64,000 bases of DNA from Styela clava (taxonomy: Eukaryota; Chordata; Ascidiacea; Stolidobranchia; Styelidae), in assembly GCF_964204865.1 (NCBI RefSeq), contig NC_135262.1, forward strand, positions 12,152,001 through 12,216,000, in the 5' to 3' direction. Numbering within the stretch: the first letter of the stretch is position 1; the number at the start of each line of letters is the position of its first letter. The notes under the pieces are model-generated. The model was given only the letters and a program-made list of their open reading frames with translations. It did not search any database and had not been told where the DNA came from. The position numbers and the translations under genes were made by a program. Shown piece after piece: positions 6,076 through 57,352 of this stretch.

Positions 6076-7119
6076 GGTTGAACATGTCCGTGAATGCAAA
6101 TGCACGTCGGTGCAACTGTCTATGAGTGCAAATGTTCGTGGATGCAAATGTACGTCAGCGCAACTGTCTACGGGTGGAAATGTCCGTGTGTGCAAATGTT
6201 CGTGGATGCAAATGCACGTCGGTACAACTGTCTACGGGTGCAAATATCCGTGTGTGCAAATGTTCGTGGATGCAAGGGTACGTCGGTGCAACTGTCTACG
6301 GGTGTAAATGTCCGTGTGTGCAAATGTTCGTGGATGCAAAGGTACGTCGGTGCAACTGTCTACGGGTGCTAATGTCCGTGTGTGCAAATGTTCGTGAATG
6401 CAAATGCACGTCGGTGCAAATGTCCGTTTGTGCAAATGTTCGTGGATGCAAAGGTAAGTCGGTGCAACTGTCTACGGGTGTAAATGTCCGTGTGTGCAAA
6501 TGTTCGTGGATGCAAAGGTACGTCGGTGCAACTGTCTACGGGTGCAAATGTTTGTCAATGCAAAGGTACGTCGGTGCAACTGTCTACGGGTGCAAATGTC
6601 CGTGTGTGCAAATTTTGTAGATGCAAAGGTACGTCGGTGCAACTGTCTACGGGTGCTAATGTCCGTGTGTGCAAATGTTCGTGAATGCAAATGCACGTCG
6701 GTGCAATTGTCTACGGGTGCAAATGTCCGTGGATGCAAAAGTACGTCGGCGCAACTGTCTACGGGTGCAAATGTTCGTGGATGCAAAAGTACGTCGGCGC
6801 AACTGTCTACGGGTGCAAATGTTCGTGGATGCAGAAGTACGTTGGCGCAACTGTCTACGGGTGCAAATGTCCGTGTGCAAATGTTCGTGAATGCAAATGC
6901 ACGTCGGTGCAATTGTCTACGGGTGCAAATGTCCGTGGATGCAAAAGTACGTCGGCGCAACTGTCTACGGGTGCAAATGTTCGTGGATGCAAAAGTACGT
7001 CGGCGCAACTGTCTACGGGTGCAAATGTTCGTGGATGCAGAAGTACGTTGGCGCAACTGTCTACGGGTGCAAATGTCCGTGTGCAAACGTTCGTGGATGC
7101 AAAGGTACGTCGGCGCAAA
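6076..7119 (+). repeat. Higher-order minisatellite, 16-bp monomer
   Basis: The monomer is 16 bp (for example GTGTGCAAATGTTCGT). Four distinct monomers in a row make a 64-bp unit that repeats through most of 6170-6660. From about 6710 a 48-bp three-monomer unit repeats, and a block of about 206 bp is duplicated (6669 onward against 6875 onward). Because 16 and 64 are not multiples of 3 and the monomer lacks stops, long open frames appear in several frames on both strands. They encode the same Cys-rich tandem nonsense and are treated as repeat artefacts. Degenerate monomers continue to about 7250. Confidence 0.95.
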
Positions 7120-7738: not shown

Positions 7739-9352
7739 TCACTTCCAACAGAGTTTTTCACAAAGTTCGCATGAAATATCAACGCGAATTCTCTTCTTGC
7801 CCTTTCCGCGTGTTTTGTTGTGCTTTGATCGTTTTACTGTAAACAATAAAATCAAGAGTTCAATATTGCATATATATTTATGTCGTTATATGGCAAGGTG
7901 TTTTTGCTATGGTACGGCTAAAAGTAATACTACTCCCAACCAACGCAATGTAAATTTACGAATATAATTCAATAGTAACAGAATCTTTACCTCTGTTCAG
8001 TGCAACCTCGCTATTGTCTTCGATGCTCCTTTTGAATATCGTTTGTATTTTGCAACTTGAAAACATTGTTTTGCACGTTTGACGGATACTTGGAGCACAT
8101 GATGCCATTAACTTCTTCAGAAATTTTCTACAAGAAAAAAAAACAAGTATGTTATTGAGTATGTCAATTTCGTGATAAAGTGAAACTATTTTTTACATGC
8201 CTCAACAAAAATTGAAAAACCGAAGATATATAGTTTACTTAGCTTGGTGGGATACTCATGCATTGTTTAATTGTGTTTGTTTTTAGCACTAAGGCTTATG
8301 ACAAGGTCGTGCTCGGGTATTTGATGCCGCGGGGTGATGTGTCAATATGAAAACCGCGAATTCGCGTGAATTTTGGAGGAAAATTAGAATTGTCCCGCTT
8401 CGAGACATCGTGTGGTTAACAAGCCGGAAATTTGATCTACTAATAAATCTGAATCAAAATTAATGGGATTTTGCCAACATTTCATTTATTCGTTTTCTTT
8501 CTGATTTTCCCATGTATGCTGAATTAACATATTGCCACGTTTGGATGATGGATATAACTGTTTTAATGTAAGGTTATCAACCTGTAATTGAATGGTTTCG
8601 ACGTGGATAAGCAATCCCAGCATATTGCTTTCATGTGGTAAAATTAAAGATCATTTATAATCGTGAGAAATTATCAATTTTTTTTAACAGGAAGTACGAT
8701 TTATAAATTAGGTAATTAAATTGTTTAATTGAAAACATTTTCACAAATTATCACACTACCACTTAGACAATTATATTCTATAAATAAAATCGTTTAGAAA
8801 TGTACTAAATTTTAGCTCGGGTTTTTCTGGTTTTCAATGAAATTGCTTCTTTATACTGTAAGTCGTTAGCCAGTAATGAAATCAGTTATTTTTGGCTATC
8901 AAAATAAAATGTTGAATAAAACTTTTCTACCCTCCTCGATCAAAAACAAAACAAGTACATTTTACTTGGAAGTAAAGTACTAGCTAGCAACCAATAAAAT
9001 ACTAATTATTACTAACTAATCGAGCCTATATCGTCGAACAGATGGTTTGTCATCAATTTCACTCAATTGAAAGTTTTTCTTACCTTCGGCGTATTCGTCT
9101 GCTATTCGGGGCATCTCTGTAGGTACTTGGCTCATCTTCAGCTTTAGCATTGGTGTTATCGTCACACTCTTTTTCCTCTGTTTTTATTCTTTCCTTTTCA
9201 GCTGCTATCTGTCGTCTCAAAAGTTTCATTTTTCGTGCCAAAGTTAATCGATTCAACGCAGCTCTTTTGACCGACATTGGCGCAGAAGACACACATGCGA
9301 TGACAACTGCTGTCATTGCAAGTACAGCAATAAAATATGTACTCTTCAACAT
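7739..9352 (-). CDS. Secreted cysteine-containing prepropeptide, paralog A (3 exons)
   Basis: Spliced on the minus strand: exon 1 9352-9084, exon 2 8127-7991, exon 3 7836-7739; introns begin GT and end AG, phases 2 and 1; 167 aa. Residues 1-24 form a signal peptide (hydrophobic core, then SSAP). An amphipathic Lys/Arg-rich helix (about 33-60) follows, with Cys63 after it. Exon 2 starts right after a RRIRRRK basic cluster and has Cys at 100, 108 and 115 (SCAPSIRQTCKTMFSSC), then a KR site. Exon 3 opens with VKR, has the basic run RGKGKKR and ends with C158-x2-C161-x3-C165-W166-K. The paralog at 19590-20775 shares intron phases and all seven of these cysteines. Precursor architecture suggests a hormone, neuropeptide or antimicrobial peptide processed at dibasic sites; I do not recognise a family. 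The splice model is inferred but strongly supported by the paralog. Confidence 0.82.
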
Positions 9353-10549
9353 TTTTGTTTCAATTCGAATTGTTCTATTTCAAAAACTTTACCACGTGTC
9401 CGTGATTTTTTGCCTTTACAAAAAATTTTTATTTCTGGCGATTGACAAATAAAATATCTGTCAAAATCATCAATACCGTCGCTTTATATCGTTGATATGA
9501 GAGAAAATTCACCTTTTTTTCTCGAATCGTGATCACCGTTTGGTTGCATCTTCAATCCTCTCTCAAGTGTGTCAACGTGGTCAAATTTCTCCGTTTATCG
9601 ACGTTTTTGTATGATTAAATGTTCGGGATGTAGGAAGAGCCTTGGGCAAATTTTTGGTGAAAATAGACTACACTGTTGCGAGGTTATATCGATGACTTTA
9701 ATCTGTTATTATTATCAGGAAAAACTGGGGATTTCTCCTGTGGTTTATTTTCAACTTTCGTTACATTTACGTAAGCAACCACTAAATAACAATTTTTACC
9801 TGTCAATCGAAATATAAAAGAACTGCTTGCATTAAATTGTTGTTTTTATGTGCGTTGATACAAAACACAACCAATAATATACTTCGGGCAGACAAGTATA
9901 ATTGCAGGATGTTAAATCACACCATGGGATGAATGCGGGATTTCAAGGGTAGGGCATGTGAAAAAACTTTTACAACATCACGATATCACCACGATAACCT
10001 TTTTCTATGCCGACCGTGTATAAATTATGCTATTCAATCAGTCGAGTTGTTTTCAAATTCGGGCTTGATATAATAATTTTTTGATCAGACTTAAAGAAGT
10101 TAGCCCGTTTACTCTATCCTGCATTGGTAATCAGGAACTCGATGCTTAGGTAGCAAAAGTATTCACTGCGAGAGAATTCTAATATTCATTTTATATTGGT
10201 ATTATGTTGATTTCTGCTTCCACATACGTTGTTTTCGCGTAATACTTAGTCTGCAAATTTCATAAAAGTTGGTCCTCCTCACATACGACTGTTTACGAAA
10301 ACATTATTTCATGCTTGTTTTCACGGATCTATTTATTATATATATATATACACTATCCTAGTTACGGTTATATCATGATTTACAGTGTGCTAACGCACTA
10401 ACATTAATGTGAATAATTGTAGTTTCGAAAAACAGGGCTGGAGAAGATAGTTTGAAGTTGAACAATTCTGTTCAGATCAATTGCATCTACATACCATCAA
10501 ATGACGAGAAACACTCTTTTTCGAAATAACACCTGGTAGTACCCAGTAA
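9353..10549. other. Intergenic between the divergent peptide genes
   Basis: Upstream DNA of paralog A. No further coding exon or transposon end is recognised. A short TA run lies near 10338. Confidence 0.4.
9482..9488 (-). promoter_or_regulatory. Possible TATA box of paralog A
   Basis: Minus-strand TATAAAG about 130 bases before the start codon at 9352. This would give a leader of roughly 100 bases. It is supported only by its position and by the similar TATA box of the paralog. Confidence 0.35.
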
Positions 10550-12900
10550 ATGGTTTCGTATTCCATATAATTATGAAATTTTAACCTCCACATTATGCGG
10601 CAGCAAGTTTTTTGGTGTTACGTGATTTGATGTAGATAGCATGCTCTGGGCGAGAATTGTACCTAACAAATATGTATGGTTTTCTGCTGGATAATATTAC
10701 GTAACCACCTCCTCTGCAAAGCACTGGTTACTATTACCAATAACGTGAGTTAGTCAGGATTCAAAAGGGAAATCCCCAATATGTAACCACTGTCACTTGA
10801 GAGCGCAATACTAACGCAACGCGACTTTCTCGAGTTTTCAATTGGGAATCTACATGAACGAAATCGGAATGTTGCTTATTAATAATGGGTATTATTACTG
10901 TGCGGATACTTTGTCCAGTAATGTTTGTCACCTGCTGAAACTTCAAAAATTAATATATCACATCTAATACTATAATAACATAGGTTTACTGTGTCATACT
11001 AGGACGGAGAATGATTTTCGAATGACTAACACATGATTGCGGGTTTCACTCTTCGGATTTTGGTAAATTTAGATGCCGCCGTAAAATCAAATAAACTCGG
11101 GGAATTCTTAAGCTGGTTTCGATGTTTCGAAACGTAATGTAGGAATGTATCTAGAAAACAACAGACTCTTTGGATTACCGGATTAAGTTTATGGTATTAG
11201 ACAACAATTTGCTTTTTTCAATTTATCATTTAGAATCACTTCTACTCCATGGGAGTTCAGAGCTGCGTAGAAAAATATCTATGCGTATAGATTGTTAATA
11301 GTATATAATTAACATATTTATTTCATATACAGTATATTTATATGTAATTTAAAATTTTCAATATCGCTTTTCGTGGAATTATGAAGAAATCGTGACATTT
11401 TCAGCAAAACAAATATAGAATTCCACCTCCTAGAAAGCGTTGTGGCTTCATTACTTCGTCGGGATTTATAATGAAGTATAAGTCAAATTGATTTTCAAAC
11501 CAAATTGTGTCATTTTGTGGAGTAATTATATACATTATAAACAGTCTGAAACCCAAGCGACCAATCTAGTTTTTATTGTGGGTTGCCTGTTTCTGTTATT
11601 TTTTCAGTATTTACCGCATTTTATTAATACAAAGTAACCACATTCTCTGCCAGACACTGGTTGAAAATACCATTGCTTTGGTTGGTATACTGCAAGAGAA
11701 GTTGAAATGCATGGCTTCAAAATAGATGGAAGTTGGCCCTATTATTTTCTAGTTACGTTTTAAGATTGTTGCAAAACATTCAAAATTAAATAAGCTCATA
11801 TAAATATATATATGAGCATTTTTTCACATTCGGGAACTAGTTAAACGAAATTGTAATGTTGCTTTTTAAATATTGGTGTTTCACAAATGTTTCCGGGTGA
11901 TGTCTGCCATGCCGTCTGATAAAAAAAAACATTGAAAACTGAATCTATTACAGCATGACATTAGAGGTTTTGATATTATAGGTTCAAATCACTGTCGTGA
12001 CTGATTATTGTGGGTTTCACTTCTATGGATTTTGGTAAAAATTTGATGACTACCACGGAATTAAATAAATCCGGAGAATTTTTTAATATGCTTTCATACT
12101 AAGTTTCGAAAGTATAATTTTACAACCTCTCGACAAGTCTACGTAATTAATTGCATGTTGAAATCTGTAGGTGCGGTTTACATGTCAGCTAAAGAGAAAC
12201 ATATCGTATATAATATAAAACTAAAAAGAAATTTTAATATATACATTGGTATATAATACATGCATATTTATATGTATATACTAATTATTCTCACTTTAAT
12301 TCTTATTGCATTAAGATAAAAATTGTGATATTTTTAGCAAGACAATTAATAGAAACCCGGTGCTATATATAGGTCCTGCGTCGGATTATGTCATCATGAA
12401 AGCGAAGTAAAGTTTTAAGTCAAATATTTGTCGAACACTATAAACATACTGGAATTCAAACAACTAACCTAGTTTTCGACAGCAGGGAGATTCCAAGGGT
12501 TTGTTTAAATTGCTGTATTTATCAGAAAATGCGCTGAGGTTATTGGTTGACCTAGTTCTAAGTTCTATATTATTTGCCACATGCCACCAATTATAACAGT
12601 TTTAGATAAATAAACAAAGTATCTTGTTTCATTGGGGAGAAGTTAGCGCATCATGGCTCCAAAAATAAACCGAATACACATAGGATTTACTTTCTATTTA
12701 CCATTATATCCGACTTGTTATTTATAAGTAAATATTTGACTTGAATAAGTTATGAGCATTACAGGTCGCTTTTGGTTAAAATAATGTTTCTTCGTTTCTG
12801 ATAAAGAGTTGTTTTAATGATTTCAAGTTAGTTTATGATTTTTCAATCCATCATGCGTTCTCGATGTTCATCTTGAATTTCTATCTGGCTGCATGCTTAA
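10550..12900. repeat. Diverged ~950-bp noncoding tandem duplication, 2-3 copies
   Basis: Aligned landmarks recur with spacing of 0.9-1.0 kb. One is 'gtaaccacctcctctgcaaa' near 10700, again near 11635, and weakly near 12530. 'CGAAAT.G.AATGTTGCTT' occurs at 10858 and 11843. 'GGGTTTCAC..TC...GGATTTTGGTAAA' occurs near 11040 and 12010. 'GTGA.ATTTT.AGCAA.ACAA' occurs near 11390 and 12330. The copies are strongly diverged and contain no shared open frame, so this is old noncoding duplication. The exact unit borders are not resolved. Confidence 0.65.
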
Positions 12901-15900
12901 AAAACATATGCATAACCCACATATGCTCAGATTTACATTACATTATAGTTTGTAACATCATATTATTAATTGTTAAATTCTACGAATTTCCTGCGGGTAA
13001 ATCGGTAAGTTTTCCTCGCCTTGAAGAAATTGTGATCAAAATATTAGGTTCATGCATAAGTAAATAGATGAAGTCATGAAAAGATTGTAATTCCGATAGT
13101 AGAGTGGGAACGCTGCTGTACTGAAGCGCGAATCGGAATACCGGAACATAATTAATTCAAATAAAAGTGTCTGTAAGTGTACGTAACAAAGATGCTAAAC
13201 GCCTTTTGAACAAAAAAACGAATTTATTAGCAATTTTTCGATTTCAAGTAAGTATCCTGACAATCACTTGTTGCCTATGAGGCTAATTTGCTTAAACTGG
13301 GCATGACCCGTTAATGATAAATTTGGAATTTTGATGTCTTTATTTGCAAGTTCAGGTTACACAAGCCTTTCATTGATCGGCTTATCTACTTGAGAATTAT
13401 ATTAGTATTAGTTAAAAATTTGAATTTCGTCGGAATGCTGAAAGCTATACAACAATGGACTTAATATAAACAAAAACAATCATTGAACATAAACAAAAAT
13501 TCCGATTGCCCAAAGCGACTAAAATCTAAGTGAAATTCTAACTAACCCATTATATAAACACTAGGGAATAAGTAAAGATAATTTTAGGCGAGGCAGAAAT
13601 GCATAAACAATTGTACATGCTTAACCATCCTATTTTGTTTACAGGAAACTACCTGAAATTATCGTGAGACTGTTTCTGTTGATAAACTATGAGAGGGAAT
13701 GTTTTTAGGCAAAATCGGAAAAATCGTATCGGTATTGAAGGTTATTTTAAATGTTATTCATACGTTTTAATTGTATTATATATCAATTAATTTATATATA
13801 TCAGGTCACTATACATATTTATGCATTCGACTACATTAGTTGGCTAGCTATTTGTGTACATCAAATTTTAAATATTTGAATCAAATTTTGTTAACCATTT
13901 TTTACTGTATTTCTCGTCCTGTACTTGTTTCGTACGTTTACATGTTTATCTATGTTAAATTGATGGAAAGTGCATTTGAGGGAAATGAAAAAAAAAATGA
14001 ATCTATTATAAAAAAAAAATTGTGCGACACTGATACAACAATATTAATTATTTTTGAGCTCTGCTTTTGTGTCTGGGAGCACCCATGTGTTTGTGTTATC
14101 CAAATCCCATAAATGGCAGATTGTACGTTATAACAAAAGTAAGCCTGAATCTATTAATCTAAACTCAATTATGGCCCGGCAGTTTCGTTTGTTTAATGTT
14201 TACTAAAGTTCTGATATTCAGAGTAAACAACGCAAGCTCCGGTGACGTCAGAACTACTGAAAATAAGTCAAACAATCTATTTTGAGAGGAACGTATCGTA
14301 CATCATACATTACATGCCGAACTGATTGTGTCGTGCACTGTTTATACGAGCAGGTGCTTAGGAGAATGTGGTCGATTTTAAAACTAAATATAGCGTTTTG
14401 ATTTTATCGTAATTAATGTTTGTAACTAATTTTATCTGCTTTTATAGAAATTATAGATACAACATCTACTAGAATTAATGCACGCTGTAATGGAATTTCA
14501 AAATTGATTATATTTTAAAGAAGTATTATGTCAATAGGAGTGTAATAAGAGATTACCCGATCTTTGCACAAATCCGTAACTACGCCTAAATAGTTGATAT
14601 ATTTATTGTCATGTGGTAATACCGTATCGAGTACCGTCTTTTTCTCCAAAACGCTTTCCCAACGTTGGAATAATATCTCAGTGCTTACAGGCACATACAG
14701 GGAAAATTAATCCTGTAATCTTTCGGGAATCCGAACTACTCGGCTTTTACTAAACACAGTCGCTCTTGGGTATCAGTGACATTACTATCAGTACGATTAC
14801 TATATTCAATATATTGACAAAAACGTTTTGGCTGTGACTAGAGAAATAGGAGAATTATCATTATCCGGAATCACACATTCGTCACTCATAGTTTCACCAA
14901 ACTTTTTCTATTCGACATTTACATTCTTTCTTGATTTATCTGCAACCCAGGTTGGATGTACTGCTTTTCATCAATATTCGCGAAAAACGTTAAACGGGAA
15001 CATCGAATTTCCTCTATATTATTCTCCTGCCCAAGCCAACCGCGATACCACGTTTCTAAACAGAAGAAAATCCTCCTTATTCAAAACGGAAGTTTCATGT
15101 GTTGAAGATGTAGGAGAATGACTATTTTACTCCCAAAGAAAATTCCAAAGATTTAAGATTACAAACCCACAAATCACGTACTGAAACAAAAGGGGAAGCC
15201 AAAAACTTCCCTGTCTGTATAAAAATAGTGAATTCAAATTAGTAAATTACTAATTAGAAGTAAAAGAAATTTACGTTAGAACGCACTGTTTCAATTTTAA
15301 ATAGAAAGAAGTGCCATATCAACTCCTTTTTGTTTTTTGGAATTTTCTCTTTCTCAGATGTTGAACTTGGTATAGATAGACATTTTCATTGATGTAAATC
15401 GATATTTGATAAAGTAGCCTCAATTGCAACTGAAGTCCACCTTATTATAGAATACATGTTTGCATCATTTGCAGTGGTTGACGCATAGAAATTGTTTGCT
15501 TATGGCATCCGAACAGGTTGATTATGAGAACTACCAGCGAAAGATCTTCAACACCCCTAAGTAATTAATATTCCCCTGTAATTTTTCGTGCTCTGAGTCA
15601 TGTTTAAAAACTGACCGTTCACATTTTTGAATGACCAATTGCATGATGTCCCCCCTTGTGTCAACATTTTTTGTCAATCATATTCGAACAGAAAAACAAA
15701 ATTTTCAGTCAAACGAGTCTGTTTTGAATATTTATAACATATTTGAAATATTTTCTCGAATGATTACGTACAATATAGTGAAAGCGAATATTTTGAGTTA
15801 ATATCGTATGTGAGAACTCACGTTTCTATTCCAAAACCTTTGTTTATGACGTCAGTAGTAACATAATCAAAACAATTAGTTTCCGTTTGTAAAAATATTT

Positions 15901-18900
15901 TACCTTCGAATCTGATTTACAATATTTGGAATTTTTCTTTCAAAATCTGGCTTAAAATCCAAATAGTTTTATGAATATATATATTTTGTACTCGTTCTTT
16001 ATTTGGACACATCTGTTCCACATGTTGTAAAAATCAGTAGAGTATATATATATATATAATAATATATTTTACAGCAACTATAAGCATTATGTATGGAGGT
16101 TTCATGCTTTTGCTTCGCTACGAAATCACTTAGTTATACCTGGGATGAGCCTGGGCTCGATCTTTCCAGTCACGAGTGAGTAAATGAATAGGCTAAATCA
16201 ATTGGCAGATATAGAGGTCGCGACAGCATTGGTCGACTTCATCGCAAATATACAGAAATCTGGCAAGGAAAAATGATTAAATATAATATTAATCATCAAA
16301 GTAATTATAATCCTTTTTATTAAAGAATGATTTAAAACGAATATTCAAAATTTTGTTTTTGCCAAGTAACGATCCTGATTAATCTACGACCCTGATGAAA
16401 CTCCAATTCGTCATTAATTTCAGTTCTGGGGTTGATGTCATACAAACTGATAAATTGCACGAATACTGTCGATGTTGACGACACTTTTGAAGCTTGAAAA
16501 ATACAAATCTCCCCACTTTAAAAAGCATTGGTCATATCGGGTGTGGATTTAACGAAAATTACGGAATTAATAAAAAAGAAATCGATAGCCTAAATTGATT
16601 GACGTCATATGTCATACAATAATCACAAAAGGATTTCAAAGATATTCTTTATAATATACTCAAACATCTCAAATGGGCACGCTTTGACTCAGTTGTTTAC
16701 CAAGACTGAGTATTCAACGATTGGAACCAATGACGCAAGCTTCGATTCAAGTATTGCAAAATTTACAAGAAATTGGATATTTTGAAAATAAATCCCCAGC
16801 AAAATTTATCGGGAAATTTTTACGCGATTCACATTGTTTCATCCATGATGAGGATACCAAGGAGTTATGTCCACGCTCTGGAAATGATCAGTGTGACCAC
16901 CATAACGACCGATTTGTGGAAAGCAGAGCGTCTTTTAAAATGCAAATTCGCTATTTTTTTTATTAGCTCATACTTTCTCAAAATAATGCACCATAATACT
17001 AGAATTTTCCAGTGCAATATGGTTACCAAAATATAAACATGAACTGACTTTAAGTGGTCATAAAAGCATTGTGAATAAAATGCTGATTTCTGTCGTGTGG
17101 TAACCGACAAAAAAATAAATATAAAATATTTACGATAAATGAAAGCTCCAAGTTGTGAATGTCATTTTTGCGTACATTGCTCTTTTGCCTATAAATATTT
17201 GGATATTTTTACAAGAGCGATAATTTTCAAAAATGAAATGTCTCAAGTAATTAGAAAGAACCGATTTTTTGCTTTTGGAACAATGCAGCAATCTGGCTGA
17301 CTGACCAAATATTACGCGGAACGTCTCTAATCGTGATATTTCGGGACTACCTGTCAATTCAGACAGCATGTCTACACTTTTGTTTATTCACCGATGGGTC
17401 ATTGATGCTGTGCGGTTTTATGACAATTTCTGACTTGTTGAAAAACGAATCACGTGTGTCGATTTGGTAAATATACGTCAGTGACTTTGAATCATGAATG
17501 GCTTATAACTTAAAAACAAAGAACTACTTCAAGTGATTGTCACAAAAAGACACAATTCACTGGAGATAAATGCGTCATGATCTCAATTTGAAGCAACAAC
17601 AGCGTGTCAGAGAGTTCAGGCCATCACCCCGTTGGTGTATCATCGATACATGCTAGGGATTGACACGTTCCTGAAAGAACAAACGAGCATTGTCATATTA
17701 CTGATCCATCATAGATTACTATGTGATTTAATGCAAATTGCATATTTTGTAGATAAACTGGGTGAATGAATATTAAAATAATCATTTGACGTGTTTTGAA
17801 TGAAAATATTGTAATTCGTGAACCCGGCATTGCCTTAGTTCCTGTATATTTAAAAATATATATATATATATAAATGATTGTAAATCAGATTGGGATTTTG
17901 AATTCTTGTTCAACTTCCATTTTTAAATATAAACGGCCTAATTTTGCTTCCGGAAAATTATCCCCAGTCTATGCACTTGAGAGTCCTTGAACATTCAAGC
18001 AGCCACTTAGAAAATACACCATTCGAAAGTAATTACGCGCAATTATGCAAATACAAAAGAGATGTTTGTAATTGAGCTTGAAATGAACAGACAGAAATCC
18101 CGATCTATAGTTAATTGCATCACATTTCTTTCTTTGAATTACGCGTCTACGATTCTCACTTATCATAGTTATAAGCAAGGCCAAACCATTCTATGATACT
18201 GTAAAACGAATAATAAATGTAAATAAAGATAGTCATTTGATTTGCTTTCGAATTTTGAACCTACTTTATAGAGTTTCAAATTTAATAATTCTGGTTCGCC
18301 TTCAATTTTTTGTTGGGATTTTAAGTTTGGGCCGGGCTATTGTTATTAAAATTATTAAGCAAGATTACAAATACTGCTGTAGTGTTCAGATATAAACTAT
18401 TTTGGAGATATATTATCCAGATTTCATTTTTATTGCTATAAGCTTAATTTTCGTGGGCACATATAGCTGCTTTGCAATTTTTGTAGTATATTCGTTATAA
18501 GGATAAAGTATTAAAAGTTGGATTTTATATTTTCAAAAACACAGTGTTGCCAAACAAACATCAAATCATCACACAAAGGTAGCGCGGAACAGTTTCCACC
18601 TGGAGGCGCTCTTCAAAACACACTGATTCAGAATTCAGTGAAGTCATTTGGAATATCAGTTAGATGTGGAAAATCCAATCATAAAGATTCAAAATATTTT
18701 TTTCTTTATATCATCTACTACATGAGCGATGTAATGTGGAATAATATATTTAAACAACGGTGTACATCATGTTCAAGTTTACAATTGAACTTTCGCTGAT
18801 AAAACATGCAGGAAGTTTAAAATTTTCTTCTGTTGGTTATGATCGCACTGTAAACATAGCCACATGCTTTATTTTATTTCAGATAATTTAAACATTGTAC

Positions 18901-19550
18901 AGCCAAAATAGATTGTAAACGTAAACCATGTTTCTGTACTGAAACAACAAGACGGAAATTCCTATCTTTTTTAAAAATCTATGACAACTATAATGAAAGT
19001 ATGAACAATTTTAGTATCACGTGATACGTTTCTAAACATTAATTTCTCTCGAAATTTTATTGAATAACTTTATAACAATTTGGACAAATCATCCCGTTTA
19101 TGAAAGTTGGAAGGGAAGTCACATCTCGATAAAAATAGAATTCATTGCTGTTTCATACCCTGGCAACGAGTATAACGCAATCTACCATATTATTACCGAT
19201 ATAAAGTTTTATAGGATTTGACTTTCAGACCCGCCTTATTTAAATATTTTAGTGAGATCATTTTCGGTAAAATACAATACAACTAAGCCAAACCAGAATT
19301 ACTATTTGTCTAGCTATTGCGATATATACATCACTTACTTAAACTAACGATTCTATTTTTAGCACGGCATTGACTTAAATGATTTTAAAATTATTTAAAA
19401 GTTTAACAGTATCGCTCATTTCAGTAGACGTTTCATTAAAAATATATTTACGAATCTTGTCTACGACACTCTCCAAACACGCAACATCGTGGTCTGAATC
19501 ACGCCTCATAGAATGTATGTTTTCTCTCGTTTTCAATCGCTGTACAGTTT
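12901..19550. other. Long intergenic stretch, no gene recognised
   Basis: About 6.6 kb of AT-rich DNA. Open frames at 13840-14112, 14828-15121 and 16721-16966 have no recognisable domain, no conserved splice partners and low-complexity composition. A TA dinucleotide run lies near 16043 and another near 17857. A weak tRNA-like B-box occurs near 16160. Confidence 0.45.
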
Positions 19551-19552
19551 AG

Positions 19553-19560
19553 TATAAAAG
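19553..19560 (+). promoter_or_regulatory. TATA box of paralog B
   Basis: TATAAAAG 37 bases before the first ATG (19590) and 91 before the second (19644). An initiator-like CAGTCAG at about 19579-19585 lies at the expected distance. A transcript starting there would have almost no leader before the first ATG, which favours the second ATG as the main start. Confidence 0.65.
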
Positions 19561-19589
19561 CCTAACTCGTTCGTCTTACAGTCAGATTT

Positions 19590-20775
19590 ATGAGAAACTA
19601 CAGCGCTAATAGCAAGTCTGAAATAAGTATACGTGATATCAAGATGGCCCAGTATTCTTCAACACCGCGCAGTCACATTCTTCTGCTTTGCCTACTTTTA
19701 CTTGCCTTGGCTATATCTACCTCAAACTCAGCACCGTCGTACAGGCCACACTTCAATCAAATGAACATTATACAGAAAATAAAATTTTTGGAACGAAAAT
19801 TATCATTGTTGCGAAATCGTAAAACGAAATGTCACAAACAAGTTCCAGATGCGCCAAAATCCGAGACTCCAGATCAAAATAACAACGAGAATACAGATTG
19901 GTCGCAAAGAATAAGGTATTTCATGTTTTATAATGTCTAATACTTTAATACACTGTATTATGAGTTGCTGTGTCTGGTACTGTAAACAATAGATTGTCGT
20001 TTATTTTTTTACTATATGAATATTCACTTTGCATGACAATCAGTAAATATTTGTCAAAACGTCATCCTGTACAAACAAAATTAATGATGAACCAGTGTTA
20101 AGCTAGCCAAAATATGATCGTAATGATTTATCTAACTATGTAGTAATAGTATGTTTGTCTTTATAAGTCAGAAAATTTTACAGTTCTATCTCAGTCTGTG
20201 AATGCACAACGTTACATTTTCCAGTTTATATCTTACTGCATATTTAAATTGTTACTGCGACCTACTTGATCGTACAAATTCAATTTTATATTGGTCGATG
20301 ACAATATATTTTTTAATTTTAGACAAACTTATGAAAGAGTTACGTCTTCGTGTGGGCTAATAATGCAATCAAGATGTAAAACAATGACAAGTCGATGCCA
20401 CGTTTCAATGCTTTCAAAACGTAGTATTCCAGAAGACGAAAACGGTGACGTCGTAGAAAGAGGTATGTTTGAAATCTATGTAGTCATAATATGACCATTA
20501 TGAATGGAATGTAAGAAAAGCGCTATTCTTATCGATAGTCCTACATTCATCGAAACTTGATCATTTCGAAACGCGGTGATTAACATTGCCATGATCCTTG
20601 GCATACGTCGTATTAATGTAAATAAAAATAGAGACTGTGCAGTGATTATTTAAAATATATTAATTTGAATATGTATTTTTCAGTAAAGAGAAGCTCATAC
20701 TCAGTGTCTCGACGAAATCGCGGGAAGAAAATTAAAGTTACTTGCAACATGTGCAGAATCAATTGCTGGAGTTGA
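19590..20775 (+). CDS. Secreted cysteine-containing prepropeptide, paralog B (3 exons)
   Basis: Exon 1 19590-19915 (more likely start 19644), exon 2 20323-20462, exon 3 20684-20775; GT-AG introns, phases 2 and 1. From 19644 the product is 167 aa, the same length as paralog A; the first ATG gives 185 aa. A hydrophobic signal (ILLLCLLLLALAIS) is followed by SAP, an amphipathic helix and Cys63. Exon 2 carries C101, C109 and C116 (SCGLIMQSRCKTMTSRC) and then KRSI. Exon 3 starts VKRS, has the basic RGKK and ends C158-x2-C161-x3-C165-W166-S. Cys spacing in exons 2 and 3 is identical to paralog A, although most other residues differ, which implies purifying selection on a disulfide framework. An odd total of seven cysteines would permit a disulfide-linked dimer. 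Function unknown. Confidence 0.85.
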
Positions 20776-21536: not shown

Positions 21537-21665
21537 TGAGTTTTTGGTGCTCCAGAAGGATGCGCACCAAGATGCCGCACAACCCGAATCCCAACCGGTA
21601 CACACATACTATGTTCAGGTTGTGCGCCATCTTGGTGCGCTTACTTCTGGAGGTCCGAGTTTTTA
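21537..21665. mobile_element. Palindromic MITE, copy 1
   Basis: Arms of about 50 bp face each other: left GCGCACCAAGATGCCGCACAACC, shown in short as CACCAAGATG, against the right inverse GGTTGTGCGCCATCTTGGTG. The loop includes ACATACTATGTTCAG. A second member sharing ACCAAGATGGCGCAC and CATAGTATGTGTA lies at 28110-28229. No coding capacity. Confidence 0.7.
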
Positions 21666-26290: not shown

Positions 26291-27033
26291 ACTAAATTTT
26301 TAATCGAAATAGAGAATATACGATTGAATCCTAAATGTCACGTTATTGGCATGCGATAACGACAGTCGACTTAAAAGTATGTTTGTCCGCGCATTTCTTT
26401 GCATTAACGCGTTACGCATTCGTCCTCAAAAAAAGATCATTTCTGGCATCACAAATCACAAGTACGCGAACAAAAATAGACAAATGTTTGAAATATAAAT
26501 ACAGTAAGCGGCAGCTACCCTTAGCATCCGGCTTCGACGTTCTGTAGCACATGCTATGAACAGCACAGGGTTAATGAAACCATGAGCAATCAACCGTATC
26601 AGTAAATATATCCGTCGCTCTTTTAATAAGCTGACTTGTCTCGCATAGTCGTATTAGCAGCAAAATTTACAAAGTCAGTTCTTTTTGGTGTACTATAACA
26701 AGAATATTGTCATCTCAGCCTCAGAACTGCGATTTATTTATTTTTCACGTTATACTTGAGTGATTCTTAGGTTTGATCGGGGTCGAGTTGAGGTGAAAAT
26801 GCCAAAAAGTGAAGATATTTTGTAATTCGTAGAAGGGTAAATTACGCCGAGTCATTATGTGTATTTTCTAAGTTAGCGGGTAAATATATGCGTGCTTCTA
26901 TCTCCATCAGCGAAGCAAGTTTGTGATTGAATATGTATAGCTAAAATCCTTTTAGATATTCTAGGTGTGTACCTTTATACACGAAATAAAAGTACTTACA
27001 GATAAAATTGCGTATAGGTATCTTTCATATACC
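26291..27033. other. Upstream region of the SDR gene
   Basis: No separate gene recognised. Contains the 5' flank of the SDR. A possible acceptor (GTATAG, about 27012-27017) lies shortly before its ATG. Confidence 0.4.
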
Positions 27034-27795
27034 ATGTCGCTTGCAAGACTTGTAGGAAAAAGCACACTTGTAACCGGAGGCGGAAGTGGAATAGGAAGAG
27101 CAATTTGTCAGGTGTTTGCAAGAGAAGGTGCAAGTGTAGCAGTAATTGACATCAACCGTGACGCTGTATCTGAGACTCTCGATCAACTGCCGAGGAACCA
27201 TGGCAACTTACATTGCGCCATTGAAGCTGATGTGACCTCATCCGGAAGAGTCAAACACGTTTTTGCAGAAGCAAAAGATAAGCTGTCCAAAACAAGCACC
27301 ATCCTAGTCAACAACGCAGGTATTATTCGTGGCGATCTACTACTGGATATGAAAGATGATGATTTTGATGACGTCATCAGAATAAATTTGAGAGGATCGT
27401 TTCTTATGGCTAGAGAATTTTTGAGATCATTGAAAGATGCAACTGATATTAAAGGCTCCTTGGTGAATATAGCAAGTATCGCAGGAATAACAGGATATTT
27501 CGGGAATGCGGATTATTGTGCTTCAAAACATGGAGTAGTTGGATTGACAAAAAGTATCGCATTGGAATATCCGAAACATAAAGTACGGTGTAATGCCGTG
27601 CTACCGGGTATAACCGACACACCAATGGCACAATCATTCGATCCAAAGAAAATAGAACAAGGCGTGAGACAAATACCGATGCGAAGATTGGCAAAACCCG
27701 AAGAAATTGCAAATGCTTGTTTATTTTTCGCATCAGATGAAAGTTCATACGTCAATGGAGCATGCTTAGAAGTAACGGGAGGACTTAATGTTTAA
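27034..27795 (+). CDS. HSD17B8: HSD17B8-like short-chain dehydrogenase (3-ketoacyl/17-beta-hydroxysteroid)
   Basis: A 253-aa classical SDR in one exon. The start at 27034 is chosen because an in-frame upstream ATG at 26965 adds 23 residues with no SDR similarity, while 27034 gives the usual short N-terminus. Visible motifs: TGGGSGIG cofactor loop (14-21), acidic Asp39 after the second strand (NAD preference), NNAG (93-96), Asn118, catalytic Ser148 and Y161-x3-K165, and the C-terminal EVTGG. The order and the 'RCNAVLPGITDTPM' block resemble HSD17B8, which in animals pairs with CBR4 as the mitochondrial 3-ketoacyl-ACP reductase (NADH, type II fatty acid synthesis) and also oxidises oestradiol. 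Close SDR relatives such as FabG-like reductases remain possible. It stands alone; no signal peptide is obvious. Confidence 0.85.
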   Translation: MSLARLVGKSTLVTGGGSGIGRAICQVFAREGASVAVIDINRDAVSETLDQLPRNHGNLHCAIEADVTSSGRVKHVFAEAKDKLSKTSTILVNNAGIIRGDLLLDMKDDDFDDVIRINLRGSFLMAREFLRSLKDATDIKGSLVNIASIAGITGYFGNADYCASKHGVVGLTKSIALEYPKHKVRCNAVLPGITDTPMAQSFDPKKIEQGVRQIPMRRLAKPEEIANACLFFASDESSYVNGACLEVTGGLNV

Positions 27796-28109: not shown

Positions 28110-28229
28110 ACATTTTCTAGTGCTTCCGAAGTATTCGTACCAAGATGGCGCACTGAACATAGTATGTGTAGCGTAGCATGTTAGGGTTCAGGTTGTGCTT
28201 CATCTTGGTACGAATACTTCCGAAGCGCC
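28110..28229. mobile_element. Palindromic MITE, copy 2
   Basis: Arms GAAGTATTCGTACCAAGATG and the inverse CATCTTGGTACGAATACTTC face each other around a loop with CATAGTATGTGTAG. It belongs to the same family as 21537-21665 (shared ACCAAGATGGCGCAC) but its outer arm differs. Confidence 0.72.
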
Positions 28230-33470: not shown

Positions 33471-34477
33471 CCATTAACTAACAGGAATTATTAGATGTGT
33501 ACCGACTACCGGTATAAAAGTATTCCTCGAAAGATATCGTCAAGCTGATTATAGTCAGAGTCACCTAATGCCAAATTGCCCAATCAGAATTGTCAAGTTG
33601 GATGAATGAAAATGTGGATAGACCTAGTTCACTCTATAGTAGTGATATGATAGCATAAAAGTCATATTGGGGATGGCTAAATAGGTTGATGGGTGTCAAA
33701 TTAGGAATGACAAAATACTGAAATAGGGTCGATGAGTCAAAATCTCAATGGTTGCAAAAGGGATGGCGAACTACGTTCGATGCGTTTCAAAATAGAGATG
33801 GCAAAATGCGGGTAGCCCAAACTGCTGGCAGATGCATGGACTTTGCAGCTTTGGTATGCAGAAAGACGTACCGGTACCGTACGGTTTTGTAGTTGAACTG
33901 TGAACGAACAACCCATACCGGTACCGGTACCAGTAGTTTTGCACTTTCACTAAATTTTATCGCTTCAGTTGTAACCTTTCAAGAATTTAGAGACATACGG
34001 TAGGCTACTCGTACCGTTATTATTTCCTTGTTAGACTTGCTTAAGGGTGCCGCTGCTCAATAACCAAATTTGGTTTCTTGTGGCTCCCCTCACCCTGAAA
34101 TGCCTTTTTATTTATTTATTGCAATTTGTATATCAAGTGTGCATTTAGTATGGTGAGAAAATAAACTACTGATTACCGTGGGTTTACCGGTAATGCTATA
34201 ATAAAATAGAGCTGTAGAGAGTGAAATGTCAATAGCAACAAAATATTTGGGCTGTTATCAGGACGAGAGGCTACGGTGTTGGTTATATGATAAAGTCGTC
34301 TCATCGGTTTTTCTCTCTGAATTTTAACTTCTAGCTTTCTTTATCACGATCTTTGTTCCTGGAAAGACATCATGATTATTGCTTTTTTGTGCAGCAGTAG
34401 GTAGCCTAGTTCAGGAAATTTGTATTTTACAATTTGGGTCTCTTATATTGCAGTGTGTTGATATTTAAACCTTAAAC
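33471..34477. other. Intergenic with weak short repeats
   Basis: 33665-33810 contains a worn repeat of about 46 bp (GGGATGGC.AA.TA.GTT.GATG). 33870-33940 is rich in GGTACCGGTAC palindromes. The 5' flank of POP4 follows; no other gene. Confidence 0.45.
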
Positions 34478-35411
34478 ATGTCTCGGCAAGGAACATATTC
34501 ATATGTGGAAGCATTTATTCAAAAAACTATTCCTAAAATAAAAGAGCGAGATTTGAAAACTTTGAAGTCATCTTTGAGAAACAAGCCTATTATGTTGGTA
34601 GGAGAACAAAAGAGAGCTAAAAAGAGAAAACGTGAAAAACAGAATAAGAGAAGAATAAAGAATCGCATATTGGCGAAACCTACAAATTCAAACTATCAAG
34701 ATTATGAAAAACTGCGTATTTTATGGATGGAATACATCACAGATTTACTCTCGGATTATCAGACATTAAAACCAGGAGAAACCAAACCATCTTTGGATAA
34801 CAAAAACGCACAGGAAGTTTTGTTGAAAGCAGATTATCATGGAGCAGATCTGTCTGTGACAGGTTCACCTTGTAAATCTCATTTGGGTTTGAGTGGAACA
34901 GTCCTTCAGGTGTGCCAATATATCTGTATTATTAACCTTTTTTATTAACTCATTTTGTCCTTGTTTTGAAGTGCACTGGCACAATATGTGATTTCATCAT
35001 ATATCAATGGTATTTACAGATTCAATACTAATTGGTGATTGCACTCTACACATGCAACTTTTGACCTCATAATATATAGAATAAATTATTATGTTTCCTG
35101 ATTATGATAACTGGATGACTTGGTAATTCGTTCAAAGGATTGTTCAGTGTGTTAAATATGCATACCAATATTTCCGTTTTTTTATTAAATTAAGTTATTT
35201 TATCTCATTTTTTCAGGAAACAAAAAACATATTTTTGATCTGCACCAAGGAGAACAAATTAGTGAGAATTCCCAAGAACAAGACTATATTCACATTGGAA
35301 TATTCTGGATATCTTATAACAATATTCGGATCACAATTTTGCTTCAAGCCATCTCATAGACTCATGAAAAGATTTACGAAAAATCCACGCTTAAAAGAAC
35401 TTTTGCGATGA
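34478..35411 (+). CDS. POP4: Ribonuclease P/MRP subunit p29 (2 exons)
   Basis: Exon 1 34478-34909, exon 2 35217-35411, one phase-0 GT-AG intron; 208 aa, close to the roughly 220 aa usual for animals. POP4/Rpp29 binds the RNA of RNase P and RNase MRP and supports tRNA 5' processing and rRNA maturation in the nucleus. Exon 1 has a basic nuclear-type stretch (KRAKKRKREKQNKRR), the helix 'YEKLRILWMEYI', then the Sm-like barrel start 'KADYHGADLSVTGSPC.SHLG'. The exon junction falls at GTVLQ/ETKNIF, where the family also has LxxTK. Exon 2 continues CTKENKLVRIPK and ends with FGSQFCFKPSHR..KRF. The open frame runs past the donor at 34910 only for a short intron read-through. Confidence is high on both exons. 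Confidence 0.93.
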
Positions 35412-39868: not shown

Positions 39869-42800
39869 CTATTGATTGTGCAGAACAAGTCTAAACGTTT
39901 CATTTGAGATCATATAACTGTCGTTAACAGCACGAAGGAAAAAAGTTTGAATGAAATCTTTTGGAGGGTCATCATCAGTCTGAAATATGAAAATATTTTT
40001 TATCATTTAGTTTTCTAGGTGACTGACTGAAAAAAAAACACCCTGGCATTTTGCATTGACGTAAAGTTATTAAGACTACAACTAAACAAGAATGTTTTTA
40101 TTTATTGTTTGTTAGGAAGCTTGTCAACGTAAAAGTCTGAAATTCCAGTGTTTGAAAATACAAATATGACTCCAATATCAAAAGTACACAGAAAATGGGA
40201 TTAGTAATATTTCTTCCTGTAACGGTAAAAGGCATACCTGCAGTCTTCCCATCACTGTCACCACAACCGCCCGTCCCGCATCAACACCATATACAAACTG
40301 GGAGTCGCATGTCGTTACAGAATGTTGTACACATTTGAATGGGAGGCTCTGTAAGAAAGGTGTTTTGGTAGTCAGAAATTCCATAAATTAGTTGAAAATT
40401 TGGTAAAATTTATATCTTGCCTAATTGAAATGTTGAACTGCAGAAAGTGTAGGACATATCTTGAAGTTTTTAAAATCGCATGAGAAGGTACAATTACGGC
40501 TCAAAATAATTGTTTTTTCTTCAGCGGAATAATTGATGATTTTCTGCCTAATTTTCTTCAGTTTTGTAACATAAGCTCTCGTGCTATTTATGTTACCTTA
40601 ATAAAATGTATTTGTTCAACCAAAGTATGTGTTAAGTTTTACCTCTGATATCTGTGCTTAATACAAATATTGCACTGTGCACTATTGGCAACACTGAGCT
40701 AAACAGAGCTGATGGGAATTTGCCTTGTGTTGTCACTCCGTGACAATTTTTCAACTTTATTTTAATATCTGATATATTTCAATAACTATTCGCCTCAAAA
40801 ACTGAGACGTCACTTTGGGGGTAGGGCCCAATAATTTACCAATTTGGCAGTTGATAGTTGCTTTTTGTTCTTTCACAGCACTTCAAGAGATCTCTCGTCA
40901 CTCCGTGACGTCACGGAGTGACATAAGTATGCCATTTTTTGAAAATATTATTTTTCTGTACGCGAAGTACTATAATATTGGGTTTAAACTGCAAATTCTT
41001 CCGCTCTGCCCTCTACTTACTTTGGATCTTACCCACAATGAAACTTGAATGGCAATGGCAACTTTTTTAAAACTATCGATGACCAAAATATTTGACCTAA
41101 CATGTACCGGGTTTGAACAATATGAACAAACATATTGTAGACTACAATTGAAAAAATATGTAATCTGTTGAAATGGCAGAATAAATATGGCAAAATGCAT
41201 TGTTTTGCAATATAATTAGACATTTTTGTAAAAGGAGTAAGTGAATTCAAAAAATTCACAAACAATATTATTAAATCTCAAGTTTTAACATCGACATCTG
41301 GATTTTGGTTTATATTCATTTATCGGGTTGACTCATAGGATGGTAAAAATATCGTGAAATGTAAAAGAAATATGATGTGTTTGTCAAAAATTGAAGATAC
41401 TTCCAATTAGAAAACGCCAGTGCATCACTCATTGTCACCAATAATTATTTTTTCGTGCCAACTATATCATAAAACTGGAAAAAGCAAAAATGATGCAATA
41501 ATGAGTGTACGGAGGGACATATTTATCACTGTCTTCTTGTTCTGAATATGCAGACTAAAAATACTGTGTTTGGCGCCTACCGCTTCTATGTATGCTTTGC
41601 AAGCAGATACAAGTACTACCTAACAAGAGAGACTTCAACGCAAAAGAAAATGCTTTTCTATGGTTAATAAATTACATATCCAAATAACAAAAATCGTGTT
41701 GTCCACGTTCATGTTGTCTGTGCAACATAGCTTTTTTACTTAACTATATAGATTATTAAAGTTAGTGCACTCGTTTAGCATATTCATATGAGGGATACAC
41801 AAGCAGAACGACAAAATAATATCATGTTTCCCAATTTTTTGTTTAAATGTTTTGTGATTTCAAACAAATACCCAATCTTGATCTAATATAACTAATTGTT
41901 CAACATTCTTAATACCATTTCAATGATAAGGAATTTTTGTCACTCCGTTAGTTCACGGAGTGACATGCTACTAGTTGGGCCATATAATTACGCTGCTTCC
42001 TGAAAAATGTTTGTTGTACAATAAATTTTGCATAAATGTAGAGATTAATATCTCTAGAATACAGAGACTATAGATTATTAAAGTTAGTGCACTTGTGTTC
42101 AACATTCTTAATACCATTTCAATGATAAGGAATTTTTGTCACTCCGTTAGTTCACGGAGTGACATGCTACTAGTTGGGCCATATAATTACGCTGCTTCCT
42201 GAAAAATGTTTGTTGTACAATAAATTTTGCATAAATGTAGAGATTAATATCTCTAGAATACAGAGACTATAGATTATTAAAGTTAGTGCACTTGTGTTCA
42301 ACATTCTCAATACCATTTCAATGATAAGGAATTTTTGTCACTCCGTTAGTTCACGGAGTGACATGCTACTAGTTGGGCCATATAATTACGCTGCTTCCTG
42401 AAAAATGTTTGTTGTACAATAAATTTTGCATAAATGTAGAGATTAATATCTCTAGAATACAGAGACAAGTTATTATAATTAATATGTCATGAAGCTTTTG
42501 ACGAAATTTGGTTGATATATCGCAGTCATTTTATGCATTCAACTTTTTGTCACTCCGTGACATCACTTGTTTTGTCTCGTCGTTTGAAAAATATTTGGTT
42601 GAAAGTGAATTATGGTAAATACATCAGTGTTACTGCTACCAATTGGCATTCTAAAAATAGCAAACCACCAAGACCTTGATATAGTAAAATTGAATAAATG
42701 TGTGACTCCGTGACATTTATGGAATTGCTGTGGTTATGTTGTAAAGTTTCATTGCAACCCATCAACTGAGGCAAGTTATTATGACAATATAGGGGTGGTG

Positions 42801-54619: not shown

Positions 54620-57352
54620 ATGGCCTCTGTCGAAGAGAGCGATTATATTTGTCGTGTATGTAGATCTGAAGGTTCCCAAGACAAACCACTTTATCATCCA
54701 TGTATTTGTACTGGAAGTATACGATATGTACATCAGGACTGTTTGGTACAATGGCTTCGCCACAGCAAAAAAGAATATTGTGAATTGTGCAAGCATAAGT
54801 ATTCGTTCAAGCCAATTTATAGTGCTGATATGCCCACTCGTCTGCCAGTAACTGACCTCGTGTATGGGTTATTCCGCAGCATATTCATGGCTGTAAGATC
54901 ATGGTTGCATTATACCTTGGTAGCGGTGGCTTGGTTAGGTATTGTCCCCCTAACCGCTTGTCGAATTTATAAATGTCTTTTTACCGGATCGGTAAGATCT
55001 TTACTGAGCTTACCAATGGATATGCTTTCTACTGAAAATGTAGGACAGGATATTTTATGTGGATCATTGGTCGTGGCTTGCACGATGGCTTCTTTCATCG
55101 GATTAGTGTGGCTTCGCGAACAAATCATGAATGGTGGCATGCCAGGCTGGCTAAATAGAAACGGTCCTGATAACGTCGCTGTAGCTCCGAATGCAGAAGT
55201 TGCGATAAATGATGATAACAATAACATAGAACATGGAGTCCCGAATGCTGAAGATATTGTTGAACAAGAAGAGGATGAATCGGATGATTCTGAAGACATA
55301 GATGAGGAGGAGGAAGATGCGGAACCAGAAGAGATTCAGCTGGATGGTGCTGAAGTTGAAGATCTGGAGGAAAATGAAGTGGATGTACAAAATGAAGGAG
55401 ATGATGGCAATTGGAATGCACTTGAATGGGATAGAGCTGCGGAAGAATTAACGTGGGAAAGAATGTTGGGACTCGATGGATCTCTAGTTTTTCTCGAGCA
55501 TGTATTCTGGGTTGTTTCACTCAACACTCTTTTCATTCTTGTATTTGCATTTTGTCCGTATCATCTTGGACATTTTGTTCTTGCAGCGGTTGACCTTGAT
55601 GTTTACCTCGTTGCTTCACGATTCGAAGGATTCCTCACCACTTTATTCGGATACGTTATTTTGACCGTGGCATTTTTTGTGTGTCATGCTGCTATGTTTT
55701 TGTTGAAAATGCAACGATCTGGAAGAGTTCTTGGGATTTTGTATATTGTATTGAAAGTAGCTCTGCTAGTTATGTTTGAAATGGGTGTTTTCCCACTTGT
55801 ATGTGGATGGTGGTTGGACATTTGCTCACTACAGCTTTTTAATACAACTGTTCAAGAAAGAGTTACTAATTACATAAATTCACCTGGAACGTCGACTTTT
55901 TTCCATTGGTTATTAGGAATGATTTATATATTTTACACAGCTTCATTCATGCTGCTTTTAAAAGAAGTTTTGCGTCCTGGCGCATTATGGTTCCTACGCA
56001 ATTTAAACGATCCGGATTTCAACCCGATTCAAGAAATGATCCACTTACCATTGTACAGACATATTCGAAGATTTTTACTTTCAGTCGTTATATTTGGATC
56101 TGCAGTTCTAATGATGATTTATTTGCCAGTGCAAATGATACTTCGTTATTCACCCAACTTTCTACCATATCATGTTAATTTACGTAAAGATGTTCCAATC
56201 AGTGATTTATCTCTTGAACTTATCCTACTGCAAGTTATCATACCTGCTTTACTAGAGCAAGGCCAGACAAGGCAATGGTTGAAATCAATAATAAAGATTT
56301 GGGCGAAAGTTGTTGGTACTTTACTAGGTGTAAAGTCATATCTTCTTGGTGATACTGACGGCGATGCCAGAGCTCAAAATGAAAATCAAATTCAACCTCA
56401 ACGGGCGGTAAATAATAATGATGAAAATCAAGAAGAAGTTCCAGTTGTGCCATTTCAGCAGCAAAATTTACACCCAGAACCACAACAGATGGCTTTAGAT
56501 GGCGAGATACATCAACCCTATACTCGCCCAAATTATTTTGTGACTAGAATTGTGCTTTTGCTACTTTTAATGTGTGCAACGCTTTCATTGATCAGCCTTA
56601 CAGTAATGGTCGTACCTGTGGGAATTGGACGATATTTATTTAGTTTGTGGTTAGGTACTGAAAATGCTAATTTTATACATGATTTATATCCTACAGCTTT
56701 GGGGTTATATACATGCTGGCTGATGGGACATTTGGTAAACTTATCAATGGTATGGTTTCCTCGGGGTTCAAGAGCGATTTGGTCAGAGTGTAAAACATTG
56801 ATTAAAATGATTTCTAAAATTGCGATTGTTGGGGGTTTTGTTTTTGGATTATTTCCACTATTGTTCGGATTGCTTTTTGAGCTGGTAATCGTAATTCCAT
56901 TGAGAGTACCTTTACACCAATCTCCTCTTAATTTTCTTTGGCAAGATTGGGTGCTTGGAATTCTTTTAGTTAAGTTAGCAGTTGCTTTAACCTTGCTCGG
57001 CCCCCAATGGAAAATAAGAATTGCTATAGAGAGGGTCTTTCATCAAGGACCTAGAAATTTCAGTCTTCGTGATATGTACGTTGATGTTATTCATCCCATT
57101 ATGTGTAGTCTTTTATTATCTTTAACTGTGCCATATGTGATTGCTCATTCGGCCACATATGTTTTAGGTTTGCCACACGATTTTTCAAATATTTTATTAC
57201 GTCGTATATATCCTTGTCTCATTTCCTTTTTTGCACTAGTTTCTTTTCTCATGTTTGAAGCGAAGCAGTTTCGTCGATTGTGCGATCATATCAAAAATGA
57301 ACGTTATCTTGTTGGGAAAAGATTACTCAATTACGAGCCTGCTAAAGCCTAA
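54620..57352 (+). CDS. MARCHF6: E3 ubiquitin ligase MARCHF6 (TEB4/Doa10)
   Basis: 910 aa in a single exon, the same length as the human protein. MARCHF6 is an ER-membrane ligase for ERAD that degrades sterol-pathway enzymes and N-degron substrates. N-terminal RING-CH finger: C11, C14, C28, C30, H38, C41, C54, C57 (CRVC, CIC, H..C, CELC) with the typical W45. Then TM segments (HYTLVAVAWLGIVPLTACRIYK first), an acidic stretch at about 210-260 rich in Glu/Asp, and a long polytopic body of about a dozen further TM helices, ending with the conserved C-terminal element ERYLVGKRLLNYEP. No frameshift. AATAAA follows 35 bases after the stop. Vertebrate MARCHF6 has many introns, so the intronless structure is notable; an intact full-length frame argues for a working gene. 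Confidence 0.97.
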   Translation: MASVEESDYICRVCRSEGSQDKPLYHPCICTGSIRYVHQDCLVQWLRHSKKEYCELCKHKYSFKPIYSADMPTRLPVTDLVYGLFRSIFMAVRSWLHYTLVAVAWLGIVPLTACRIYKCLFTGSVRSLLSLPMDMLSTENVGQDILCGSLVVACTMASFIGLVWLREQIMNGGMPGWLNRNGPDNVAVAPNAEVAINDDNNNIEHGVPNAEDIVEQEEDESDDSEDIDEEEEDAEPEEIQLDGAEVEDLEENEVDVQNEGDDGNWNALEWDRAAEELTWERMLGLDGSLVFLEHVFWVVSLNTLFILVFAFCPYHLGHFVLAAVDLDVYLVASRFEGFLTTLFGYVILTVAFFVCHAAMFLLKMQRSGRVLGILYIVLKVALLVMFEMGVFPLVCGWWLDICSLQLFNTTVQERVTNYINSPGTSTFFHWLLGMIYIFYTASFMLLLKEVLRPGALWFLRNLNDPDFNPIQEMIHLPLYRHIRRFLLSVVIFGSAVLMMIYLPVQMILRYSPNFLPYHVNLRKDVPISDLSLELILLQVIIPALLEQGQTRQWLKSIIKIWAKVVGTLLGVKSYLLGDTDGDARAQNENQIQPQRAVNNNDENQEEVPVVPFQQQNLHPEPQQMALDGEIHQPYTRPNYFVTRIVLLLLLMCATLSLISLTVMVVPVGIGRYLFSLWLGTENANFIHDLYPTALGLYTCWLMGHLVNLSMVWFPRGSRAIWSECKTLIKMISKIAIVGGFVFGLFPLLFGLLFELVIVIPLRVPLHQSPLNFLWQDWVLGILLVKLAVALTLLGPQWKIRIAIERVFHQGPRNFSLRDMYVDVIHPIMCSLLLSLTVPYVIAHSATYVLGLPHDFSNILLRRIYPCLISFFALVSFLMFEAKQFRRLCDHIKNERYLVGKRLLNYEPAKA

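Follow-up and report, generated by a model that had tools for sequence, protein, structure and literature searches.

A dispersed gene family in Styela clava encoding putative secreted precursors with a shared six-cysteine code

The window analysed here, the whole 64 000-nucleotide stretch 12152001-12216000 of contig C17 of the ascidian Styela clava, contains two head-to-head genes, A and B, both members of a gene family that numbers five or more in this species. All five (A-E) have three exons with intron phases 2 and 1, and all five contain exactly the same cysteine code, C-x7-C-x6-C followed after 41 to 47 residues by C-x2-C-x3-C-W at the C-terminus, with one residue or none between the C-W and the stop codon. 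Tentatively, and with a little less than even confidence, we read these genes as encoding secreted precursors that would be trimmed by proprotein convertases to disulfide-linked basic peptides, most likely ligands. NCBI already lists A and B as uncharacterized proteins, so these two genes are not new; the literature searched contains no description of the family, of its six-cysteine code or of members C, D and E.

Gene models and paralogy of A and B

Both coding sequences are 504 nt long, giving 167 aa from three exons with GT/AG borders. The introns, of phase 2 and then phase 1 in each gene, measure 956 and 154 bp in A and 407 and 221 bp in B. The features are as follows; positions of the first dibasic sites were derived by hand from the exons, cleavage at them is putative, and the two candidate promoter elements were picked by eye.

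9084..9352, minus strand: gene A exon 1, with a hydrophobic signal-like start, a basic stretch and an acidic spacer; ends in phase 2; covered by NCBI model LOC120332693
7991..8127, minus strand: gene A exon 2, with the C-x7-C-x6-C module and KR-S site; ends in phase 1
7739..7836, minus strand: gene A exon 3, with the remainder of the RVKR-S site, a basic tail, C-x2-C-x3-C-W and the stop codon
8052..8099, minus strand: gene A C-x7-C-x6-C (C100, C108, C115)
8025..8033, minus strand: gene A first dibasic site K-R-S (residues 122-124)
7745..7771, minus strand: gene A C-x2-C-x3-C-W (C158, C161, C165, W166)
9483..9489, minus strand: putative TATA-like element 5' of gene A
19644..19915, plus strand: gene B exon 1; ends in phase 2; the LOC120332736 model begins 18 codons upstream, at 19590
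20323..20462, plus strand: gene B exon 2, with the C-x7-C-x6-C module and KR-S site; ends in phase 1
20684..20775, plus strand: gene B exon 3, with the remainder of the RVKR-S site, a basic tail, C-x2-C-x3-C-W and the stop codon
20351..20398, plus strand: gene B C-x7-C-x6-C (C101, C109, C116)
20417..20425, plus strand: gene B first dibasic site K-R-S (residues 123-125)
20743..20769, plus strand: gene B C-x2-C-x3-C-W, in exon 3
19553..19559, plus strand: putative TATAAAA box 5' of gene B

This structure, three small exons with phases 2 and 1, had been proposed in the initial annotation from the sequence, and it agrees with independent NCBI models. Gene A is 99% identical over its full length to 'uncharacterized protein LOC120332693' (Styela clava), with one residue different (S22A). 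This residue, Ser in the window and Ala in the NCBI/UniRef model, lies within the signal-like region and is perhaps an allele. The whole of protein B is contained, identical, in LOC120332736 (185 aa), which has 18 additional N-terminal residues from an upstream ATG. The start codon at 19644 seems likelier than the one chosen by NCBI, because the TATAAAA box would start transcription very close to the ATG at 19590. Both models, which correspond to genes A and B, are named only as uncharacterized proteins, and the names seen carry no family link.

The paralogy of A and B, also suggested initially, is well founded. A BLASTP comparison gives E 3e-21, with 48 of 165 residues identical (29%), and the local alignment score was reached by none of 2000 shuffles when the first 26 residues of A and 30 of B were omitted; exon number and phases are shared. 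In the alignment, 49 of 160 columns are identical, and the 160 aligned codons differ at 86 first, 70 second and 101 third positions. In the flanking DNA of the two genes just four matches turned up, each 14 to 22 bases long, with E between 0.12 and 0.41. Divergence calculated by the Nei-Gojobori method (NG86) is 0.78 for non-synonymous sites (dN) and 2.5, saturated, for synonymous sites (dS). The pair had been described as old and under selection. The cysteine framework has indeed stayed in place although most other residues have changed, and the saturated dS fits an old pair under constraint, but it is not a clean test of selection.

Further members and the cysteine framework

A search of the 376.6 Mb S. 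clava genome with A returned the exons of A, exon 2 of B, a weak match on contig C4 (E 0.109) and one on contig C2 (E 1.28). About 400 bases downstream of the C4 match, on the same strand, the motif C-K-L-C-E-K-N-C-W is encoded, and gene C was read at this locus. A search with C led to gene D (match E 0.66) and one with D to gene E (match E 2.1e-4), while exons 2-3 of E returned only E and D. The genome searches used A, C, D and exons 2-3 of E as queries and scored only their best candidates, and five is therefore a lower bound. The exon borders below are putative, read in this analysis from the sequence.

C4 6585405-6585143, 6584822-6584692, 6584377-6584274, minus strand: gene C, 165 aa, phases 2 and 1
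C17 13826250-13826443, 13827236-13827369, 13827499-13827608, plus strand: gene D, 145 aa, phases 2 and 1
C17 2857439-2857231, 2855721-2855579, 2854284-2854202, minus strand: gene E, 144 aa, phases 2 and 1

By BLASTP, C matches B at E 2.5e-30 and A at E 2.3e-24, and B is nearer to C, on the other contig, than to its neighbour A (95.5 vs 72.0 bits). The description of A and B as a pair has accordingly given way to a family of five or more. In a tree, D and E stand apart from A, B and C with support of 99/97 for whole proteins and 88/90 for the core; the tree does not order A, B and C among themselves, and long branches were flagged. The genes are dispersed over two contigs (C17 and C4), and 20 stretches of 10 kb around A/B, C and D contained no additional copies; around E, about 8 kb were read. 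Two further matches, the one on C2 (locus L005) and another of E 0.95 (locus L039), were dropped as members, having neither CxxCxxxCW nor an open Cx7Cx6C on either strand.

In all members three of the six cysteines lie in exon 2 and three in exon 3. Those aligned between A and B are 100/101, 108/109, 115/116, 158, 161 and 165. Seven had been counted initially and their positions were numbered correctly, but Cys63 bears the same number in A and B by coincidence: in the alignment, C63 of A faces Val67 and C63 of B faces Glu59. Since it is unaligned here and missing in C, D and E, a seven-cysteine framework was rejected and the common framework consists of six.

The pattern CxxCxxxCW(x)stop occurs four times in 264 kb (the 20 10-kb stretches plus the window), each time in one of A-D. 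The looser C-x7-C-x6-C alone also occurs by chance, with seven other open matches in the window. When C and W were held fixed, the core similarity was reached by 0 of 500 shuffles in nine of the 10 pairs, and by 5 of 500 for A and D.

Processing sites, charge and relatives elsewhere

Putative cleavage sites lie at both ends of the piece that connects the two cysteine groups. At the first, which follows the third cysteine, A-D all read K-R-S and E reads R-K-D. The second, at the intron-2 junction, has K-R in all five and R-x-K-R in four, reading RVKR-S, RVKR-S, RDKR-S, RIKR-G and EDKR-A in A to E. Measured from the first site through the second, this stretch is 15, 16, 13 and 17 residues long in A, B, C and D. 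The N-terminus is hydrophobic and signal-like, by eye, in every sequence. As sequence features, then, the signal-like starts and dibasic sites of the initially proposed secreted precursors find support.

Net charge after residue 26 is +23, +17, +16, +22 and -1 in A to E, and that of the N-terminal part before the cysteine module +7, +6, +8, +1 and -6. The tail carries +3 to +7 if its start is taken as the final KR or RR that precedes S, A or G, a point that falls inside the tail in C and D. Gene E has an acidic stretch where A-C have their N-terminal basic one. A basic N-terminal part is thus a feature of A-C and not a defining mark of the family, that of D being +1 and that of E -6. The basic amphipathic helix of the initial annotation fares unevenly: the region is helical in low-confidence models, but in neither A nor B does it hold any of the six 18-residue segments with the highest hydrophobic moments, and it is acidic in E.

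Protein searches of 5.8 billion sequences (E up to 10) returned only A and B themselves: one protein among 42 candidates with A as query (A itself), two among 379 with an A+B profile, and one among two with the C-terminal part of B. These searches require shared five-residue words, of which at most 100 were used, and their queries were drawn from A and B before C-E were known, so absence from other tunicates is not established. No credible Pfam family was found for any of the five (E limit 1 for one scan, 10 for the others), with HMMER filters that remove the majority of matches weaker than about E 0.1; A gave DUF2706 and B gave BRI3BP, and both were judged to be chance matches. So were the NCBIfam matches, three for E and one for A and all far below the cut-offs, in scans of A, C and E; C had none. 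PDB sequence searches with A, B and the A+B profile gave nothing within an E limit of 10. The initial view that no recognised family is involved thus holds for the searches made. No paper naming LOC120332693 or LOC120332736 was found, and by topic no description of the six-cysteine family appeared at the level of titles and abstract openings.

Structure prediction, which had been suggested together with the family search, gave low-confidence models. AlphaFold with a two-sequence alignment returned a predicted local distance difference test score (pLDDT) of 54.7 and a predicted template modelling score (pTM) of 0.23 for A, and 50.3 and 0.24 for B. In the A model residues 82-98, 102-113 and 156-166 are helical and 117-121 and 150-154 form strands; the B model has one long helix across the first module and no final helix. 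Run against PDB with Foldseek, the A model, whose quality is too low for use, gave 16 matches at E ≤ 10, the best at E 3.0 and none at E ≤ 0.001.

Surroundings of the genes

Just downstream of gene A, at 6084-7119, lies a minisatellite of TGCAAATGT-type units with periods of 48, 64 and 206. The long open frames that result on its two strands are no evidence of genes. Near B, an element with GCGCCATCTTGGTGCGC-like inverted arms (21546-21647) has a 77% identical inverted copy at 28128-28229; it looks like a small transposon of the miniature inverted-repeat transposable element (MITE) kind, and a similar element was seen by eye in intron 2 of gene E (locus L037). A tandem repeat at 41897-42466, with a 199-base unit in 2.9 copies that are 99% identical, is very recent or homogenised. 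At 54620-57349 an uninterrupted, apparently intronless 910-codon frame encodes a MARCHF6-type membrane ubiquitin ligase (Pfam RINGv and MARCHF6_C). Other frames with Pfam matches are:

26965-27792: short-chain dehydrogenase
59336-60928: SPRY-domain protein
63270-63845: death domain
34469-34948: RNase P/MRP p29, match just above the cut-off
1305-1658: hAT transposase fragment, match just below the cut-off

Possible nature of the products

Exon 2 and exon 3 contribute three cysteines each, and conserved basic sites lie between the two groups, so the simplest reading is of two disulfide-joined segments from which the connecting stretch is removed, as in insulin; the likeness would be one of layout, with a different cysteine code. 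Genes A-E would encode small, probably secreted precursors that enter the secretory pathway, where three disulfides may link the segment from exon 2 with the tail from exon 3. Cutting by proprotein convertases could take place at K-R-S and R-x-K-R-S, with loss of a connecting piece of 13 to 17 residues in A-D. The product would be a basic two-chain peptide outside the cell, most likely a ligand, E perhaps being trimmed differently. The variable N-terminal part would be a propiece and, in A-C, may yield a separate basic helical peptide. The A model would fit packing of the tail back onto the exon-2 module, at low confidence, and is not used as proof.

Several points weigh against this proposal. 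E lacks the first dibasic site, so that two-chain cutting is not universal, and the disulfide link between the two segments is putative. So are the signal peptides, judged from hydrophobicity by eye, and for C, D and E the exon borders are our own readings. Both structure models are poor, and that of B lacks the final helix.

We lean towards an extracellular ligand, with a defence role a close second, because the genes found are few and scattered and retain their basic sites and the exact positions of their cysteines, whereas overall charge is not kept in E; both roles, signal and defence, are putative. A defence reading, in which ascidian blood cells or epithelia make cationic antimicrobial (host-defence) peptides whose basic helix and basic cysteine tail would act on microbes, is possible but on the unlikely side. 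The strongly positive charge of A-D, the marked divergence and the lack of a match to A and B outside S. clava are all consistent with it, but E is slightly negative overall with an acidic N-terminal part, and conserved dibasic sites and dispersed single genes suit a processed ligand at least equally.

Ascidians do produce cysteine peptides, a point in favour of a defence role. Turgencins A and B of Synoicum turgens (PMC7024374) are cationic, amidated peptides of 35-36 residues with six cysteines, and their second half, like the A-E tail, is C-x2-C-x3-C. Their first half is C-x3-C-x4-C, with 7 to 8 residues between the halves, as against C-x7-C-x6-C in all five proteins here, from which the turgencin motifs given there, CxMAC and KKxGG, are absent by eye. 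Homology was rejected, since 84 to 597 of 2000 shuffles reached the scores of A and B against both turgencins.

A larger claim would make the family a tunicate superfamily in its own right, so far undescribed, whose hormones or cytokines are disulfide-linked two-chain peptides with a six-cysteine code and a receptor of their own, and whose insulin-like processing either arose independently or marks an extremely derived insulin relative; this appears to us unlikely.

It is less likely still that the proteins form a secreted structural or matrix family (tunic or egg coat) in which the dibasic runs serve for binding and not cleavage. K/R-rich tails could bind sulfated glycans and dibasic processing is putative, but the proteins are small, the K-R-S position and the junction K-R are largely or wholly kept, and the cysteine code resembles that of folded small peptides.

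Insulin genes have a phase-1 intron at the connecting peptide, and the insulin/relaxin motifs are CC-x3-C-x8-C in the A chain and C-x11-C in the B chain. A divergent branch of that superfamily with rearranged cysteines is very improbable: the family resembles it in the order of putative signal peptide, cysteine-bearing and putatively helical segment (C-G at the first cysteine in B-E), connecting piece with putative basic cleavage sites (at both ends in A-D, at the second in E) and C-terminal cysteine tail, and has a phase-1 last intron at the connecting piece in all five, but it has its own code and an extra exon-1 propiece, contains neither chain motif, and none of the five matched the Pfam insulin profile within the filter limit given above, nor A, B or their profile a PDB sequence. 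Membership was rejected on both cysteine motifs and profiles.

For the putative processed ligand as for a defence peptide, a family with an invariant cysteine code, a common gene structure and retained basic sites defines a concrete, testable peptide of known order and spacing, for which a receptor or a microbial target can be sought.

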